The position numbers and the translations under genes were made by a program. DNA of 64,000 nucleotides, from positions 186,001-250,000 of the forward strand of contig NW_023501041.1 in assembly GCF_014066305.1 (NCBI RefSeq), given 5' to 3'. The notes under the pieces were generated by a model. It saw only the letters and a program-made list of their open reading frames with translations. It was not told where the DNA came from and did not search any database. Source of the DNA: Letharia columbiana. Lineage: Eukaryota; Ascomycota; Lecanoromycetes; Lecanorales; Parmeliaceae. Below, in pieces: positions 5,632-25,622 of the stretch. Numbering within the stretch: position 1 is the first letter of the stretch; every line of letters starts with the position of its first letter.

Positions 5632-6623
5632 TCACTCCTCCGAGTCCCGCTCCGCGCCGAATACAAACCCAGTCCTGTGCAATTCGTGCTCCCTGTAATA
5701 CCGTTCCATCTCGGGCACATACTCCGAACCCTCCGGGCAAAACGTATAGTGCTCGTACTCACTCTCGACCTCCCTCCCGTTCACGTCCGTAACGTTGTCG
5801 TCCCGATAGCAAGCGTCGTACCCGGCGGCCCAGTCCACGAGCCGGTCCCAGTTCCTGCACTGCCGGGTCTGGAAGGGGTCGTAACCCTGGCGGAACGGTT
5901 TGGGCGGCAGTTCGAACCAGGGCGTGTCGTCGGCGTGGCAGTAGACGTCCTGCAGGAGGCCGTCGAGACAGTGCTCCACGTGGTGGTAGAGGTTGTCATC
6001 TTCCAGTGGCGCGCCCCGATGGGCCGCTGACGTGAACTTTTGGATCTTGATCTGCGCTTTTGTGATTAGAGTATTCCTCACCACAGTCTGGGTGGGGATA
6101 TAGACGTACAAGGCAATGCATTTGATGGAATGCACCGATGATGTAAATTCCTTTGGATTGATCCCAAGGGAACCGTTGGGAACGTGGCAGGCCGTTCTGC
6201 GCGGCAAACTCGTCCGAAAGAGCGATCGTTCCGGGACTTATGTCCAGTGCTCCCCACAGCGCGTCTCGCTCTTCCTGGGTCCCCACTGCTGGGCCATACT
6301 CGGTACTAGAGTAAATAGGAACAGATACGTTGCGGACCAGTCCAGCTAGTAGCTTGTTAGTACACTACAAAATGAGCAACGAGGCATGGAAGCTTACCCC
6401 AGCGCGTGCCTTGCGGTGAGATGCTGGACGTCTCAGAATTTGCAGAGTTCGGTAAGGGTAATATGAAGAACAAGTTGCAGCTTAATGAAATGACGAGGAT
6501 CAGGCTGAGTATGGCTGTGGAAAGGCGGATCTGATAGCAGCCTCGACTTTTTCGCTTCCAAGCTAGCTGGCTCCTCTCAAACCCTTCTTCATCTTCATTG
6601 ATCAGAGGCAAGTATTTCTCCAT
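5632..6623 (-). CDS. UstYa-like (DUF3328) oxidase
   Basis: A 293-residue type II membrane protein of the UstYa/DUF3328 family. Exons are 6623-6398, 6345-6110 and 6051-5632, with GTAAGC and GTACGT donors and in-frame phases. A membrane segment lies at about residues 34-56, followed by the lumenal domain. Both family-defining HxxHC motifs are present: H149-Q-M-H152-C153 and H178-V-E-H181-C182, the second followed by LDGLLQDVYC. Family members oxidise and cyclise ribosomal peptides (ustiloxin, phomopsin, asperipin, victorin pathways) in the secretory pathway. The gene faces a small secreted repeat protein at 8110, the expected kind of substrate. No key residue appears missing. Membership is very likely; the substrate is inferred from position. 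Confidence 0.9.
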
Positions 6624-8109
6624 CCTCGCCGGATGTGAGCAAAAAGTGATTTAGTAAGAACAGAAAGGACTCGAGACGCGAAGTGCAGTGCAGTATAATT
6701 GTTGCATCTCGTCGTACCAAAAGGACGAAAATATATAGGGGACCGTTGAGACATGGCAGGTGCAAGTGATGGGGAGCATGAGCTGGCATAGCGTTAGCAT
6801 TAGAAACGAGACTGCGAACTTCCGTATTTAGGAATAATAGACGAAATGTAGTACAGATAAGAAGCTATGCAGTGATCTGCCATGCACGAGAACGATCGGC
6901 GTTATGCAAGAGAGACCCTCCATCTGCGGGATGACGTAGCTCAGGAAAGGAGGGCATCAACTGCACGCTTCCAAGGGAACAAGAATTCCTCTCTCCAGAT
7001 GGCTGCCGACCGTGAGCCTGAATGGCTGCTGAAAGGTTCTTGCTTTCCTGCCTGTCTGGATGTGCGACAGCGAATTGCAATCGGAGACAAGAGACAAGGG
7101 TGATGTTAAGATTCAACACCACCTCACGAACCCTCTTAAGACCAGTTCAATGGCATCTCCTCACTTGCTCTCGACTCATAGGCGCTAAGTGAGAACATCA
7201 GATGATCCGCCGGCGGACATCTCTGTTGAAGGTTAGAAGCTTCAAGTAACCTCTCTTTGGACCTTCAAGTGATTGAGCTACTCACCCCACACTAAGACAC
7301 AGCAGACATCGTTGTCTCCTCAGCCGATCGTAGGCTCTATTGACGCTGATAGAGAGATAAGAACCTATGCCTGCATAATTCACGTAATCACGTAGTTTTG
7401 ATCCTACGCAAACCGGCACCTCCGGCCTGAATACTTTCTAATCATGCCACTCATTGATCTCGTTATGTGCGTCACACTACTAGCGGAGACGAGTACACCA
7501 CCTCAGTCGATGGTATACTCCTCGCATTAGTATTGTTGGCCGTTGATAGGTCTAAGGATTTCGGACGGGCTTCGAGCGGCTCGAGCCTTGTTGTTTCAGG
7601 ATGGCGGGTTCTGATATACTCGCAGATCACACCTCCCCCGCACCTCTTGCCTTCGCTCATCCTCTGCGACCAGGCATGCCTCTACCCCAGTCTAACTCAT
7701 AGTGCAGGTGAAGCAGTCCAATGAGCCTCGACCATTGCCGAGCACCTTCTGAATCAAGCGCACCCAGGATCTTCACGGAAGACATGAGCATGGTGAGCGA
7801 CACCAGAGGTAATGATAAGACAGTAATCTAATGAGGTGTTCTCTTAGTGGGCGTTATTGGATCAATCGTGCATCATGCAATACCACGTCAGGCTGTGGAC
7901 CTTTTCGATGACACTCTTATCAAGATGTACGTCTGGTACAACCCCGCTTTCCACAAGAGAGTAGCCATAAACAAACTGGCAGCATCGTATATATGCCGGG
8001 CATGCCTCGGGCTCAAAGCGTCTTCTCTGACCATATTTCATCCCGCGTCGAAACGAATTTCTCATAGCCTACAGCCCACGTCTCGCGGATCATCATCCCA
8101 TCTGTCACG
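6624..8109. promoter_or_regulatory. Shared intergenic region between UstYa-like gene and repeat precursor
   Basis: About 1.5 kb between two divergently oriented start codons. I found no convincing gene on either strand; the open frames here lack introns, signal sequences or recognisable motifs. It presumably contains both promoters. No specific operator was identified. Confidence 0.4.
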
Positions 8110-8685
8110 ATGCTTCTCCACCTGGCAACCCTTGTCCTCTGCCTCTCTGCGATCTCTAGTGGACTGCCTGCGGCTATCAGGGTGAGTTATCGTGCGGAGC
8201 TTTACCAAACCGTTGCTGAGTGGTTTTCAAGCTTCGTGAAGCAAACGCTAAGGCTGGGTCTGAGCTCGGAGCCTTAATGATGATGCCCCAGTCGTTGGAT
8301 TATGTCAAGCCTCGTGAAGCCGACGCTAAGGCCGAGCCCAAGCCAGAAATTATACAGATGATGTCCGAGTCACTGGACTACGTCAAGCCTCGTGAGGCGG
8401 ACGCTGAGGCCGACCTCGAGCCAGGAAGTATACAGATGATGTCCGAGTCACTGGACTACGTCAAGTGTGAGCCTCGGTGAAGTTCAGATGATGTCCGAGT
8501 CACTGGACTACGTCAAGCCTCGTGAGGCGGACGCTGAGGCCGAGGCCGAGCCGGAACACATGTCAGCCATGTCCCAATCGCTAGACTACGTCAAGCCTCG
8601 TGAGGCGGACGCTGAGGCCGAGGCCGAGCCGGAACACATGTCAGCCATGTCCCAGTCGCTGGACTTCATCAAGGTTGCATCTTGA
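8110..8685 (+). CDS. Secreted repeat precursor, candidate RiPP (dikaritin/KEP type), frame disrupted
   Basis: Exon 1 (8110-8181) encodes a 24-residue signal peptide (MLLHLATLVLCLSAISSGLP...). A 50-nt GTGAGT...AAG intron follows, and exon 2 starts at 8232. The mature part consists of six 26-residue units ending in SLDYVK (SLDFIK in the last), each followed by PR and an acidic spacer such as EADAEAEAEP. The SLDY codons recur every 78 nt (8292, 8370, 8448, then 8500, 8578, 8656). The fourth unit is 26 nt short, which shifts the frame near 8466-8487. The layout matches fungal Kex2-processed repeat proteins and dikaritin precursors: signal peptide, short Tyr-containing core, basic cleavage site. 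KPR in place of KR is unusual. The head-to-head UstYa-like gene supports the assignment. The break could be pseudogenisation, an assembly error in repeats or an unusual intron. Confidence 0.6.
8232..8676 (+). repeat. 78-bp coding tandem repeat, six units
   Basis: Six head-to-tail copies of a 78-bp unit with one contracted interval of 52 bp between the third and fourth SLDY codons. Units 5 and 6 are nearly identical at the DNA level, and units 2 and 3 are more diverged, suggesting recent duplication at the 3' side. Confidence 0.9.
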
Positions 8686-10714
8686 ACAGACAAGGTACCA
8701 CTCAGCGAGGTGCTGTTGTGTACTGAGCTAAAGGTGGTGCATGTGATCGGGCGAGAAATGAGATCTGATGAGCGTCGTGTTTTCAGGAGGGTCCCCTTCG
8801 TTTCCGGGTGATAGTTACAGTTGTATTTCGGTCAGAATTGTGGCAACGGTTCATTTCAATCAGCAATTTCACAGGCGCTTTCAAATGCACGTAGGCTGTA
8901 GCCTGGAAAATATATACTGTTAAGGTGAAGAAATTATCTGCTCCATGTCACTGTGTAGATGATGATCCCACAGATGTGCCATTCGGGGGTCAGAAGGCTA
9001 ACATAAGGCTGAGACCTTGAGGCAACAGTCTTGACCTCTCAAACATTAACTAGGAGCATGGTCTCTCTGACCTGTTGAGCATGGTGGGTAGACTCTCTGA
9101 AGCCCGGAGCCAGTGATTCGTGTACAGAATGAACGTACTTTCGTATCCTTTGACAGTATGGGAGCTCGAACGGACGGGTTGCGTGCATCACCATCTAAAA
9201 ACGCAGTCACCGCGTCTCTAGAAAAGCGTTGCGGTTAGCTTTGCATGCCCGGCGACCTTTTCAACAGCTTCGCGGGTGTACCAGGCTGATGACATGAGCG
9301 GCAAAGAGCTAGGAGTCTCTGGGAATGGCGATTTCCTGGATAGGTTTGGTTTTGCTTGTAGCTATCACTGAGAATAGGATGCAGCGTAGACATGGTCACC
9401 ACTGTTCGGTACGACTCAGCAGCAGTTGCCAATTCGTCCAATGCAGGCTACCACTCCCTGTTCAGTCATGGTGAAGACTTGTTCGGGATGAGGGAACCGT
9501 TCGAGATGCGCATACAGCCGATCAATCAGGTTCTTGAGTGACTATCGCATTTAGGGTTAATCCAGGCTAGATAACTGACATTCGGTAAACAATGAAGTAG
9601 CGGACTCCCGTGCTGTACCAAGTGCGAAATGGTGGGGGGGCTGGGAAGCCGGATTTAGAGAGTAGGCGGATCGAGGCCGAAGAGGGGAGAATACAAATCT
9701 TTCACGCGCCATTTCAATAAATTAAACAGATATGTGCCAAGGTGATGAGATTGAGATACAACAAGTGAAGAGAAGCCCGGGTGTTTGATCATTGGTGGGT
9801 GAACGAAAAAAGACGAGCCATACAAGTAGATAAGCGAAAAGTACCGCGCTACACACTAGCGTGGTATTCTTCGTATTCCAAAGTTTGTCGCAATTTGCAG
9901 AGCGAGTCATCACTATTCTTCACATAATGCCATAAGATAGGCTTTTCCCTTTAGCCCAGGACATGCCATCTCTTATGTGACGACCAGAAGTCGCTTCTCT
10001 CCAAGTTGCGGGCTGAGTGGGAGTCTGGGAGAGATTGAATTCTGTTAAACCGGCTCACGGGCAAGGCCGATGGCTCCAGACCTGGCAGCTGTACGCATCC
10101 AGAGGAACAGACTTCAAGAGGCTGATCTCTGCCGCGCTTTGGTCATGTTCTTACTTCGTCGCGACTGCTCTAGATGTGCTCTTACCCCAGAACTCTTTGT
10201 CAGCTTCGAGAGTTTCATGCTTTGTCAGAGTTCGCTTGATTGTCGCTTCTGGCCTTGAGGTCAGCACTAGGGCAACTGGCAGCGCGAAGCCTCAGTCTTA
10301 TATGTAATAGTACTAACAAAATGACTTTAATGACTCGATGCTAATAACGGTTCGCTTTAGTTACGACGGAGCTCACTGAAAGCCTTGGTGTTACAGTCGA
10401 GAGCCGGTCCGTTGGAGTCTGGCTGTGCATCGCGTGTGTATTTATGTTCAGAACAGAAGTTTCTACACCATGATCCGTTCTATTCATTTGTCTGTATACA
10501 AGTCTGAACATACGTGAAGCCGTTGTGTTTTGGTGCCACTCTTGAATGCCGCGACGCCGAGTAGCAGTAGTGATACAAGTCAGCTTACGGCGCTCTCAAC
10601 CCACACTGCCAGCCAATGCGAGGTAATCACTTGAACAAGAACCAGTTCGTGGAGCACTACTGCCAACTTCAAGAAAAGAAATCGCGAATCTCTCTCCAAG
10701 AGCAGTCCACCAAA
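8686..10714. other. Intergenic region
   Basis: About 2 kb without a supported gene. Open frames are short on both strands and show no signal peptide, domain or believable splice pattern. If the peptide locus has further enzymes, I do not see them here. Confidence 0.45.
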
Positions 10715-11826
10715 ATGGCCGCCGCCTCTTATTACCAGCTCGATTCCTTCCCAAATTCGGACCCAACTGCGGGATCTGACCTATACTCGGGCCACGACTA
10801 CAACAACCACCCCGTGCACCCCAGTGAACCGTCAAGACCGGACCTCCACACTGTGCATTCGAACGGCAACAGTTACAACAGTAACGACGGCCACATGCGG
10901 CCGACTGAGCCATCGAGGCCGGACTTATACACTGTGCATTCGAACAGCAACAGCTACAACAGCCCTCCTCAGCATTCTATGAACAATATGCACAGCGGCC
11001 CGCCTCCGCAGCTATCGAGTGACAGCTGGAACGCAAGACCTCCACACCCAATAGATCCTCCCACGAAACCGCTCGTGCACTCCTCTCATGTCGCAGTCCC
11101 TCAACCGCTCAAGATCCAGACCCCCAACAGTCGTCTTCGACAGCGCAGGTTCCAGACGCTGAAACGCTATCTGCGCATCGGAAAAATCGTCACCAAACTC
11201 ATCACCATTCTCTTCTCCACCATCATGTTCGCAATCATGCTCTTCACGGTCATCAAATACCAATCCACCAAGGGCGAATTCCGCGGTGGCAGAACCGCAT
11301 GGCCTGAGGAGCCGAAGCTGTGGCCAACCTTCATGCTGCTTGCCGGTGCTGGGTTGACTCTGCTTCTGTCATCCATAACGCTTCTCTCGTACTGCTGTGC
11401 ATTCGACAAAGCGAGGCGGAGCTGGAAGCTTACAGTGGTGAAATACGTGATACACATCGGAGCGTGGCTTGTCATCTCGGCGCTCTACCGGTACGAGAAG
11501 AGCACGCACGGAGTAAACGACGACCTCTGGGGCTGGTCCTGTTCGACGCAAGCTACCGCGCTGCAGTCCGAGTTCAACGGGGTGGTGCATTTCTCGAGTC
11601 TGTGCAGTGTTCAGGTATGTTGCCGTCGCCGCCGAAAAGAAAGGAAGCGTGGCTGACGATCCCGCAGTCAAAATCTTGGGAAGTCTCGTTGGCGGAGGTC
11701 GTGGCCAAGATCGTGTTTGCAGTCGGGCACTATGCGATATACATGAAGACGCGAGATGATGAACAGCAGCATTTGGCGAACGGCGTTGGTGGCGCTGGGA
11801 CGGGTTTCCTGGAGGACGTCTTTTGA
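10715..11826 (+). CDS. Four-helix integral membrane protein, unrecognised
   Basis: A 352-residue protein in two exons, 10715-11614 and 11668-11826 (donor GTATGT, acceptor CCCGCAG, phase 0). The start ATG has an AAAATGGCC context. Residues 1-150 are disordered and contain a duplicated segment of about 22 residues built around EPSRPDL(H/Y)TVHSN, at roughly residues 34-55 and 69-90. Four hydrophobic helices follow: about 165-188, 210-237, 250-270 and 303-325. The second ends in LLSYCCAF. The four-helix arrangement with short loops resembles the MARVEL-type proteins of fungi, but I cannot confirm that family. Probable role at a cell membrane; nothing more specific is supported. Confidence 0.75.
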
Positions 11827-16025: not shown

Positions 16026-17234
16026 TCATTCTTCTCCTTCATACTCGGAAGTCGCTCTTCGTGCATCGACCGCCTCTTCTTGTCTTGCACGCTCGTGACG
16101 CCTCTCAAGCTCATGCCTTTTAGCAAGCACCCGGAGTCTCTCCAGCTCTTCAAGTTTTTCAAGTTTGTGCCGTCTCTCCAACTCGTCCCACCTACCGACC
16201 GCATGACGTCCTTGGGACACACCCTCCACATTCCCTTCAATCCCACCGCGCGCCCGAACTGGCTCAAGGCGTTGATGCACATGCAAATGGCCGCTGTAGT
16301 ACGGGACCAGAGCTTTCAGTTTGAGCCGGCGGAGGAGATCAGAAACGGAAAACCTGGGGTCAAAAGCGCAGGTACCGATGAGCTGCGCCAGGCCGAAGCT
16401 GCTGATATCATGCATTGCATCGACCATACCGCCCGCCACCTGAACCCAATTCATGATCTCCGACCACTCGAGAGTACCCTCGTGCTGTCGAAATTCAATC
16501 GTCTTGTTTGATCCGAAAACCATCGGACAGAGATTATAAGCGAAGCACCTGTCTGGACGGTCCTCTTTATCTGCATACAGCAGCACGAGTTCTTCCTCCG
16601 TCTCGCAGCCTTGGATCGCTCGTACGGTGTCCCACAGATCGTGGCCTGTGAATGCTGCAGACGGGCCTTTGGCGTGGCAATTGCCGATTCGGTGAGCGGG
16701 ATGAAGGCTGTTGAGCTGAGACTCGAACAGAGCCGTCAGGATACAGAAATGCTTGAGCGTTTGCAGAGGAAAGCCGGCCGTCTGATTGCCGACGTGGACG
16801 TGCAGGCCACAGGATGGGTTCACGGACACGTCGAGATGTTTCGTCAGTGTTCGAATCACGTGCTGCACCCGACGCAGCGCCTTCGGACAAAAGCGCATCG
16901 CTGGAGACGTGATCTCAATGTCGCACTCCAGAAACCCGTCTTTGGAGCGAGGACCGTCCTTGATGTCGATGGAGGTGTCGTGGGAGACCGTCCATTTCTG
17001 GTTGCCTCCGGCAGATGTCATGTTGTAAGTAGGGAAGCCGTTTGCTCTGAGCAAATGGACGAGGTGTTCGCGGAAAAGGATGCAGAGTTTACTCTCCTCG
17101 TGCAAAAGCGATGAAACTTTCTTTTCCCAAAGGATGCCTTCAGCGGCGTGCAAAGCTGGTTTGTATGTGGTAGGATCAAAGGAGACGATGCATTCGAATT
17201 CGATACCGAAGGTAAGGTTCAGTGGTTTAGGCAT
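16026..17234 (-). CDS. Putative amidoligase (Amidoligase_2 family)
   Basis: A 402-residue single-exon protein matching the amidoligase fold, related to glutamate-cysteine ligase-like COOH-NH2 ligases. Signature elements run in order: FGIEFE (residues 9-14), DTSIDI then ECDIEITSP (about 90-115), GLHVHVG (about 142-148), and KTIEFRQHEGTL (about 244-255). These supply the acidic and histidine residues that bind Mg-ATP in the family. Family members join amines to carboxyl groups in peptides or small molecules; the fungal substrate is not known. The last 70 residues are very rich in Arg/Glu (DELERRHKLEKLEELERL and onward) and probably form a long charged coiled coil. No signal peptide, so likely cytosolic. 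Strong family call, unknown pathway. Confidence 0.87.
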   Translation of the reverse strand: MPKPLNLTFGIEFECIVSFDPTTYKPALHAAEGILWEKKVSSLLHEESKLCILFREHLVHLLRANGFPTYNMTSAGGNQKWTVSHDTSIDIKDGPRSKDGFLECDIEITSPAMRFCPKALRRVQHVIRTLTKHLDVSVNPSCGLHVHVGNQTAGFPLQTLKHFCILTALFESQLNSLHPAHRIGNCHAKGPSAAFTGHDLWDTVRAIQGCETEEELVLLYADKEDRPDRCFAYNLCPMVFGSNKTIEFRQHEGTLEWSEIMNWVQVAGGMVDAMHDISSFGLAQLIGTCAFDPRFSVSDLLRRLKLKALVPYYSGHLHVHQRLEPVRARGGIEGNVEGVSQGRHAVGRWDELERRHKLEKLEELERLRVLAKRHELERRHERARQEEAVDARRATSEYEGEE

Positions 17235-17503
17235 GCTTGCGGGACAGCTGAAGGATATATGGTAGAATTGGGAATTTGCAGAAGGAAGTTGACTTGAGAA
17301 GGCTTGTCATTCCTAGCATTGGATGCCTTTGATGTTGGAAAAGAGATTGCTCGTCCCAAGAAGACAAAGATATGTGTATGATTTTATAACAAACAAAGGC
17401 CAGGGGCTCGGACAGTCATGACCTAACAAGGCTCTAACAGCTGCTACAAACAAAGAGCAGCATTGATAGCAAGTCAACACACAAGACAGACAAAGCACTG
17501 AAG

Positions 17504-24563: not shown

Positions 24564-25046
24564 GGCAGCGTGCCGTGTATTTGTACGACATGCGGGAGGG
24601 ACGTGACGAGACCTTAATTCTGACGGGCGGCTTGGAGATGCACATTAACATTCTTTTCTCGGGTCCCGACAACATACCGCACTTTTCGACGTTTGGCATC
24701 TGTTATATTTCCACTACGGTCCGACGATAAACAGCAGCTTCACATACACCTTCCTTTCGTCAATTCGGCGGACTGTCATCTCACGATAATCTTCTTAGAC
24801 ACGACGCTTTTATCTTCTCGCTCCAGCTTTGCTTCGGCATTGCAAATGGAGGGCTTGCGACCGGCTTATCCTTGACACATACTGGAGTTTGGGCTAGTGA
24901 GCACATCCGTGCTCGTCGCCGACGAGGACCCTCAAAATGACGCGAGTAGAATTTGGAACAAGATGCCAAGACAGGACGAGCGTTACAGATCTTGGAAACA
25001 GCAACTATCTTGTGCCTTCAAAGTCCGATGCAGGAGGTTCTGGACT

Positions 25047-25622
25047 GCATGAGGCTTTGTTGACATATCGGTGTTCAGTGGAGGGCAGTTGAGGTTGGGT
25101 TGTCTGCAAAATAGCAAGATGTCATGATTGGGGGAGATACTTTCTACCTCGGGTCATGGGATCAATATGCATCTTGTATCAGTACGTCGAAAGTCGGACG
25201 CAGACAGCCCATCTCATTGCTTTCAAAGGACGTTTTGCCACTGCATGAGGCTTCGTTGACATATCGGTTTTCAGTGGAGGGTGATTGAGGTTGGGTTGTC
25301 TGCAAAATAGCAAGATGTCATGATTGGGGGAGATACTTTCTACCTCGGGCCATGGGATCAATATGCATCTTGTATCAGTACGTCGAAAGTCGGACGCAGA
25401 CAGCCCATCTCATTGCTTTTCAAAGGAAGTTTTGCCACTGCATGAGGCTTCGTTGACATATCGGTTTTCAGTGGAGGGTGATTGAGGTTGGGTTGTCTGC
25501 AAAATAGCAAGATGTCATGATTGGGGGAGATACTTTCTACCTCGGGTCATGGGATCAATATGCATCTTGTATCAGTACGTCGAAAGTCGGACGCAGACAG
25601 CCCATCTCATTGCCTTTCAATG
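25047..25622. repeat. 196/197-bp tandem repeat, about 2.9 copies
   Basis: Three near-identical copies starting at GCATGAGGCT, positions 25047, 25243 and 25440. Copies share long words such as GTTGGGTTGTCTGCAAAATA and AGTACGTCGAAAGTCGGACG. Copies 2 and 3 are almost the same and copy 1 has a few substitutions. The array has no obvious coding capacity. Confidence 0.92.

Follow-up and report, generated by a model that had tools for sequence, protein, structure and literature searches.

In the 52.2-Mb genome of the lichen fungus Letharia columbiana, an ascomycete of the family Parmeliaceae (class Lecanoromycetes), a UstYa/DUF3328 gene on the minus strand and a repeat-unit gene on the plus strand form a divergent, head-to-head pair. 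We consider this locus to be, with a probability of roughly 0.58, a small two-gene RiPP pathway of the KEP-plus-DUF3328 kind, new in its sequence and known in its kind. The pair lies in a stretch of 64,000 nucleotides (G000:C6:186001-250000), which was analysed as a whole and is called the window here. Its features in window coordinates are as follows:

5632..6051, minus strand: UstYa-type oxidase exon 3, with the second HxxHC motif (HVEHC, 5968-5982) and the stop codon; from the ORF, Pfam match and alignment
6110..6345, minus strand: UstYa-type oxidase exon 2, with the first HxxHC motif (HQMHC, 6113-6127); from the ORF, Pfam match and alignment
6398..6623, minus strand: UstYa-type oxidase exon 1, with the ATG at 6623, an N-terminal tail and the membrane helix; from the gene model
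6624..8109, no strand: divergent intergenic region, 1,486 bp from start codon to start codon by the gene-model coordinates
8110..8181, plus strand: precursor exon 1, signal-peptide-like MLLHLATLVLCLSAISSGLPAAIR; from the gene model, with a similar start in the database proteins P0002 and P0003
8182..8231, plus strand: predicted precursor intron of 50 bases, GTGAGT...TTTTCAAG; from the gene model
8232..8480, plus strand: precursor exon 2 in frame A, with units 1-3 (cores at 8292, 8370 and 8448), ending in KCEPR and a stop
8440..8685, plus strand: open stretch in frame B, with units 4-6 (cores at 8500, 8578 and 8656), ending in SLDFIKVAS and a stop
8466..8487, plus strand: frame break, a 22-base spacer versus 48 bases in the other spacers, giving a unit spacing of 52 versus 78

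The oxidase gene is intact, with three exons and two introns in a model that runs from the ATG at 6623 to the stop at 5632 and encodes 293 amino acids. The protein matches PF11807 with an E-value of 2.5e-24 (86.8 bits against a curated cut-off of 25). Both motifs of the HxxHC(x)nHxxHC signature are invariant in all 17 aligned sequences (the window protein and 16 of its 20 homologues; the fragmentary or differently spliced P0013, P0018, P0019 and P0021 were left out), which upholds the description in the earlier note of a UstYa membrane protein with both motifs. By its Pfam score, motifs and predicted membrane anchor, the protein can be assigned to the UstYa/DUF3328 family. The 20 homologues returned include the full-length Letharia lupina protein P0004 (99% identity) and proteins from Imshaugia aleurites (76%), Varicellaria (53%), Venustampulla (48%) and, as a partial sequence, Tricladium (55%), and a search of genome_contigs with the UstY alignment gave no relatives. 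In a low-confidence AlphaFold2 model (pLDDT 49.8), a single N-terminal hydrophobic helix spans residues 21-54 and each HxxHC motif lies in a helix; the model was set aside as too weak to serve as structural evidence. No convincing relative was found among solved structures, the single match being an ABC transporter at E 0.12. DUF3328 proteins are described as binuclear copper enzymes on the basis of CctR, which acts on cyclochlorotine and whose motif binds two coppers and is required for C-H hydroxylation (PMC12435403).

The facing gene, read in the earlier note as a signal-peptide protein in head-to-head orientation, indeed begins with a signal-peptide-like exon: residues 2-16 have a mean hydropathy of 2.14, on which the signal-peptide character was judged. 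Six SLDYV-type copies follow at core-to-core spacings of 78, 78, 52, 78 and 78 bases, and the 78-base period was also detected by Tandem Repeats Finder. The six copies do not make up the single protein of six 26-residue units that had been proposed, since a stop follows unit 3 and units 4-6 lie in another frame; the final copy, moreover, reads SLDFI and not SLDYV. When compared with the KEP pattern of a signal peptide and Kex2-separated repeats in one frame, units 1-3 fit in frame A, with units 4-6 in the other frame. A second intron joining frames A and B was considered and rejected on hand-judged site lists, as GT-AG pairs of suitable length lose units and have weak sites. Among the six codons of SLDYVK, four differ between unit 1 and units 2-4, all synonymously, and two differ non-synonymously between unit 6 and the other units. 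The purely synonymous differences that set unit 1 apart from units 2-4, together with the presence of the repeat in four further database proteins (P0002, P0003, P0024 and P0025), argue that the repeat did not arise by chance.

P0002 is an unbroken predicted protein of 132 aa with four units and the C-terminal end SLDFIKAAS. P0003, from Lecanoromycetidae sp. Uapishka_2, is labelled partial (102 aa, three units) and is likewise unbroken, ending in SLDYVKAAA. Because both arrays are unbroken and their ends resemble frame B, the break in the L. columbiana copy is either derived or an assembly error; as sequenced, the frame-broken copy would yield at most three units. A profile search that scored 7989 candidates gave five hits, of which three had been found before and two, P0024 and P0025, were further relatives. 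The public L. columbiana protein P0001 (HO173_002471) is identical to the frame-A repeat part and likewise stops after three copies. Its gene model has a different first exon, without the signal-peptide-like start, and this exon could conceal the precursor from secretome-based mining. For P0003, the NCBIfam matches to TonB and acyl carrier protein lay far below the cut-offs and were taken as low-complexity chance matches. The precursor query found no relatives in viral_contigs, and a literature text search for SLDYV and longer strings returned five papers, which their titles mark as unrelated. UstY relatives occur in Varicellaria, Venustampulla and Tricladium, genera that are absent among the precursor relatives listed, which counts against the proposed pathway.

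Across the window array and P0002, P0003, P0024 and P0025, 13 of 16 units have Tyr as the aromatic core residue and 3 have Phe, as counted by a pattern search with Leu fixed and listed alternatives only, which missed a P0024 unit with Phe at its very start and left a degenerate second copy in P0025 outside the pattern; Asn replaces the core Asp in two of the 16 units. With Phe standing in for Tyr in some units, a macrocycle closed by a Tyr ether cannot be taken as established. At least two Xaa-Ala/Xaa-Pro dipeptides directly follow 12 of 13 PR or RR sites, and five dipeptides follow 8 of 13, where the count is confined to sites with E, D or G as the next residue and the single exception lies in the leader of P0003. 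This is the pattern expected if Kex2 cuts and a Ste13-type enzyme trims. At the position of KPR in the other sequences, P0024 has the dibasic KPVRR. PR↓EA is also the natural, moderate-to-weak Kex2 site in the proregion of killer toxin K1 (as described in PMC7021474), which differs in having a single site and in being a protein toxin precursor of another kind; for Kex2 substrates, processing with other residues at P2 is mentioned in PMC2515848. The genome contains one Kex2 P-domain match (C4:1361802) and one DPPIV_N match (C18:784561).

From these features we infer the processing steps, the enzyme-substrate link and the type of oxidation. The precursor would enter the ER via its signal peptide, and Kex2 would cut behind the Pro-Arg that closes each unit (KPR↓EA). 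The subsequent Xaa-Ala/Xaa-Pro dipeptides would then be stripped by a Ste13-type dipeptidyl aminopeptidase, and a carboxypeptidase would probably take off the Arg, giving several copies of a peptide that ends in SLDYV(KP). The SLDYV segment around which the earlier note placed the core is present in the copies, but the predicted freed peptide, for example EHMSAMSQSLDYVKP, would have about 15 residues or more and be longer than SLDYV alone. The membrane-anchored UstY, a binuclear-copper oxidase by family, would act in the lumen, where its oxidation of this peptide would most likely fall within or beside the conserved Leu-Asp-aromatic-Val segment.

Genome-wide, 35 PF11807 matches were grouped into 22 genes including the window UstY. 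The 21 other genes were covered by 17 stretches at 16 loci, with about 3-5 kb on either side. A mechanical repeat rule was satisfied in 9 of the 17 stretches; one of these (L026) was discarded on reading as low-complexity, leaving eight. Repeat precursors with KR sites therefore lie beside UstY genes at 8 of the 16 other loci:

L013:3343-3879
L014:6565-6759
L015:5724-5891
L019:7374-7860
L020:7570-8010
L022:7159-7485
L025:2757-3167, minus strand
L028:2317-2883, minus strand

Each of the eight has cores with Tyr or Trp, including DAVYDH, VVYTWS, YVYPFKTYP, DLYEY, AAYGVY, GAPGIWSV and DNAWGGGT. In each, a signal-peptide-like stretch also precedes the repeats (judged by eye), usually in a different frame, as would be the case if an intron intervened. 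Loci L014 and L015 appear to be recent duplicates. Counting the pair in the window, this lichen fungus has about nine precursor-UstY pairs. The arrays at L014, L019 and L022 also contain frame breaks, that at L019 being a one-base shortfall, so either repeat arrays decay often or the assembly carries indels in them.

Among five random control stretches (L030-L034), one satisfied the rule (L033, an AT-rich satellite); these are poor controls, with a GC content of 0.15-0.20 in three of the five. Neither of two gene-rich stretches upstream (L011 and L012) satisfied it. In the rest of the window, the single match fell inside the amidoligase ORF and was rejected as a precursor. A looser rule also listed low-complexity and antisense ORFs, including window 10635-10979, which were set aside.

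We placed the window UstY in a tree of the 22 genome genes, many of them fragments, and nine outside proteins. It falls into a group, here called A (support 0.967), together with genes at L017, L024, L027 and L029. No repeat precursor was detected within about 4-5 kb at any of these four other loci, compared with 8 of the 12 loci that lack a group A gene. The chance of finding none in four is 0.038 by a hand computation, in which L014 and L015, likely duplicates, both count among the eight. Genes beside the other precursors belong to group C (0.916) and to the weaker group B (0.738), with the L021 and L025 genes unresolved beside group B. A B and a C gene stand together beside a precursor at L013, L014 and L022; at L021 such a gene pair occurs and a precursor was not detected. 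The pairing in the window is an exception in group A, which either weakens the link between enzyme and precursor or raises its interest. The phylogeny, which the earlier note had named as a check on its proposal, speaks both ways: the window UstY groups with paralogues at four loci without a detected precursor, and one of these, the L017 gene, sits in an R1-like dikaritin locus, so that membership of group A is compatible with a dikaritin-type cluster. This locus (G000:C62:42204-53243, L017 and L018) contains a tyrosinase and two UstY genes that have an O-methyltransferase between them, and no repeat precursor was found within the fetched stretch.

Around the pair, Pfam searches that covered 57 of 61 listed window ORFs (at least 100 aa, a floor that misses short exons) found no tyrosinase, methyltransferase, P450, NRPS or PKS synthase, and the genome-wide PF11807 matches include a single gene in the window. 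This agrees with the earlier description of one UstY gene with neither a tyrosinase nor a methyltransferase, and it counts against the proposed pathway. No tyrosinase was found near the locus, and the genome search, whose counts are lower bounds, matched tyrosinase on C38 and C62 only. The nearest pathway candidates are an SDR gene at 12.35-13.45 kb, which is the reductase-type Pfam match in the window, and an amidoligase gene at 16.0-17.3 kb; the first ribosomal-protein genes appear at 18 kb. The putative amidoligase (16029-17306, minus strand; PF12224, E 1.5e-20) lies about 7 kb from the precursor. Farther along, positions 25044-25620 contain a tandem repeat with 2.9 copies of a 197-base unit and 97% matches.

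A repeat precursor beside a single UstY gene is a recognised arrangement, described in PMC6514808 for asperipin-2a (aprA/aprY) of Aspergillus flavus, a four-gene cluster without a tyrosinase. Asperipin-2a has the core FYYTGY and transporter and reductase genes, whereas the window locus has a core around SLDYV, PR↓EA sites and no established partner gene. Ustiloxin and phomopsin share with the window a signal-peptide-like leader, repeated cores, Kex2-type sites and UstY enzymes (according to PMC6514808). They differ in having two and five DUF3328 genes, respectively (as given in PMC7329392), as well as a tyrosinase and a methyltransferase, neither of which was found close to the window locus. 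KEPs combine a signal peptide with Kex2-separated repeats, a pattern that the window precursor shares for units 1-3, and 22% are reported to have DUF3328 neighbours (Umemura 2020, PMC7329392); in this survey of 1461 strains, DUF3328 genes peak immediately beside KEP genes. KEP sites are dibasic, in contrast to the Pro-Arg sites of the window, where the public gene model also lacks the signal-peptide-like start.

The lichen RiPP Clans R1 and R2 (Pasinato and Singh 2025, PMC12048977) are likewise from Parmeliaceae with UstY as the signature gene, R2 having a single one. They differ in that the available text of this survey reports no repeat precursor in either; 'Letharia' is absent from its main text. 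In Letharia, the locus resembling Clan R1 is the one on C62 and not the window locus, and the acetyltransferases that flank Clan R2 were not found adjoining the window UstY, the one GNAT match being barely above the cut-off and 37 kb away. Among the matches listed, KEP and lichen terms occur together in this 2025 survey, in a review of RiPP proteases and in a genome paper on Aureobasidium. The available text of a Cladonia metagenome paper (PMC12542154) mentions neither precursors nor ustiloxin.

Set against the five-gene dikaritin definition of Ding et al. (as relayed in PMC12048977), the leader and repeated cores are present, frame-broken after unit 3, and the tyrosinase, the methyltransferase and several DUF3328 genes were not found at the locus. 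For the transporter or peptidase, a candidate would be the MFS transporter about 10 kb from UstY, upstream of the window (L012:4008-5204; 6 of 10 listed upstream ORFs scanned). A 2021 redefinition relayed by the same source goes by the enzyme and covers precursors oxidised or cyclised by DUF3328. The dikaritin-like pair proposed in the earlier note holds in part: the known single-UstY arrangement, the adjacency of KEP and DUF3328 genes and the eight precursors at 16 other loci speak for it, and the group A result, the Phe units and the frame break speak against it.

The repeat gene might instead yield an unmodified, linear, secreted pheromone-like peptide by way of Kex2 and Ste13, with UstY as a chance neighbour. 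Its PR↓EADAEAEAEP spacers resemble the spacers in precursors of the yeast alpha-factor type, Phe can take the place of Tyr in the core, and the other group A loci have no detected repeat precursor. However, in a 52-Mb genome that carries about 22 UstY genes, it would be improbable for one of them to lie directly beside the precursor by chance. DUF3328 genes are, moreover, enriched next to KEPs in general and nearly absent beside those annotated as mating factors or pheromones, which are reported to have no such neighbours apart from three exceptions (PMC7329392). This argues against a plain pheromone, and we regard a chance pairing as unlikely. A genome search with an alpha-pheromone DNA pattern gave no match and was uninformative.

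It is quite unlikely, in our view, that the L. columbiana precursor is a decaying pseudogene, with the UstY persisting or acting elsewhere and the family working only in relatives. The break between units 3 and 4, the unbroken arrays of P0002 and the partial P0003 with their frame-B-like ends, and the broken arrays at L014, L019 and L022 would all fit such decay. Yet frame A retains the signal-peptide-like start and three complete cores, the intact UstY shares 99% identity with its L. lupina homologue, and the one-base shortfall at L019 resembles an assembly indel, so the breaks may be artefacts. We consider it very improbable that the UstY leaves the adjacent precursor alone and acts on another substrate, such as a non-ribosomal peptide, a polyketide or another metabolite, in the way that CctR acts on cyclochlorotine. 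DUF3328 enzymes do also work outside RiPP pathways (according to PMC12048977 and PMC12435403), and the four other group A loci without a detected precursor point the same way; against this, no NRPS or PKS synthase domain occurs in the window ORFs scanned.

A more far-reaching and rather doubtful proposal is that of a conserved lichen-fungus peptide family in which a single UstY, from a group otherwise without detected repeat precursors in this genome, modifies the segment MSxSL[D/N][Y/F][V/I]K independently of the Tyr hydroxyl, for example by C-H hydroxylation or by cross-linking Leu, Asp or Val through a C-C or C-N bond. Its product might be a secreted signal in symbiosis or defence that KR-type mining would have missed. 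A first exon that hides the signal peptide, the Pro-Arg sites and the frame break may explain why mining might overlook the window locus. Together with the eight other arrays beside UstY genes, it provides testable precursor sequences with predicted cores.
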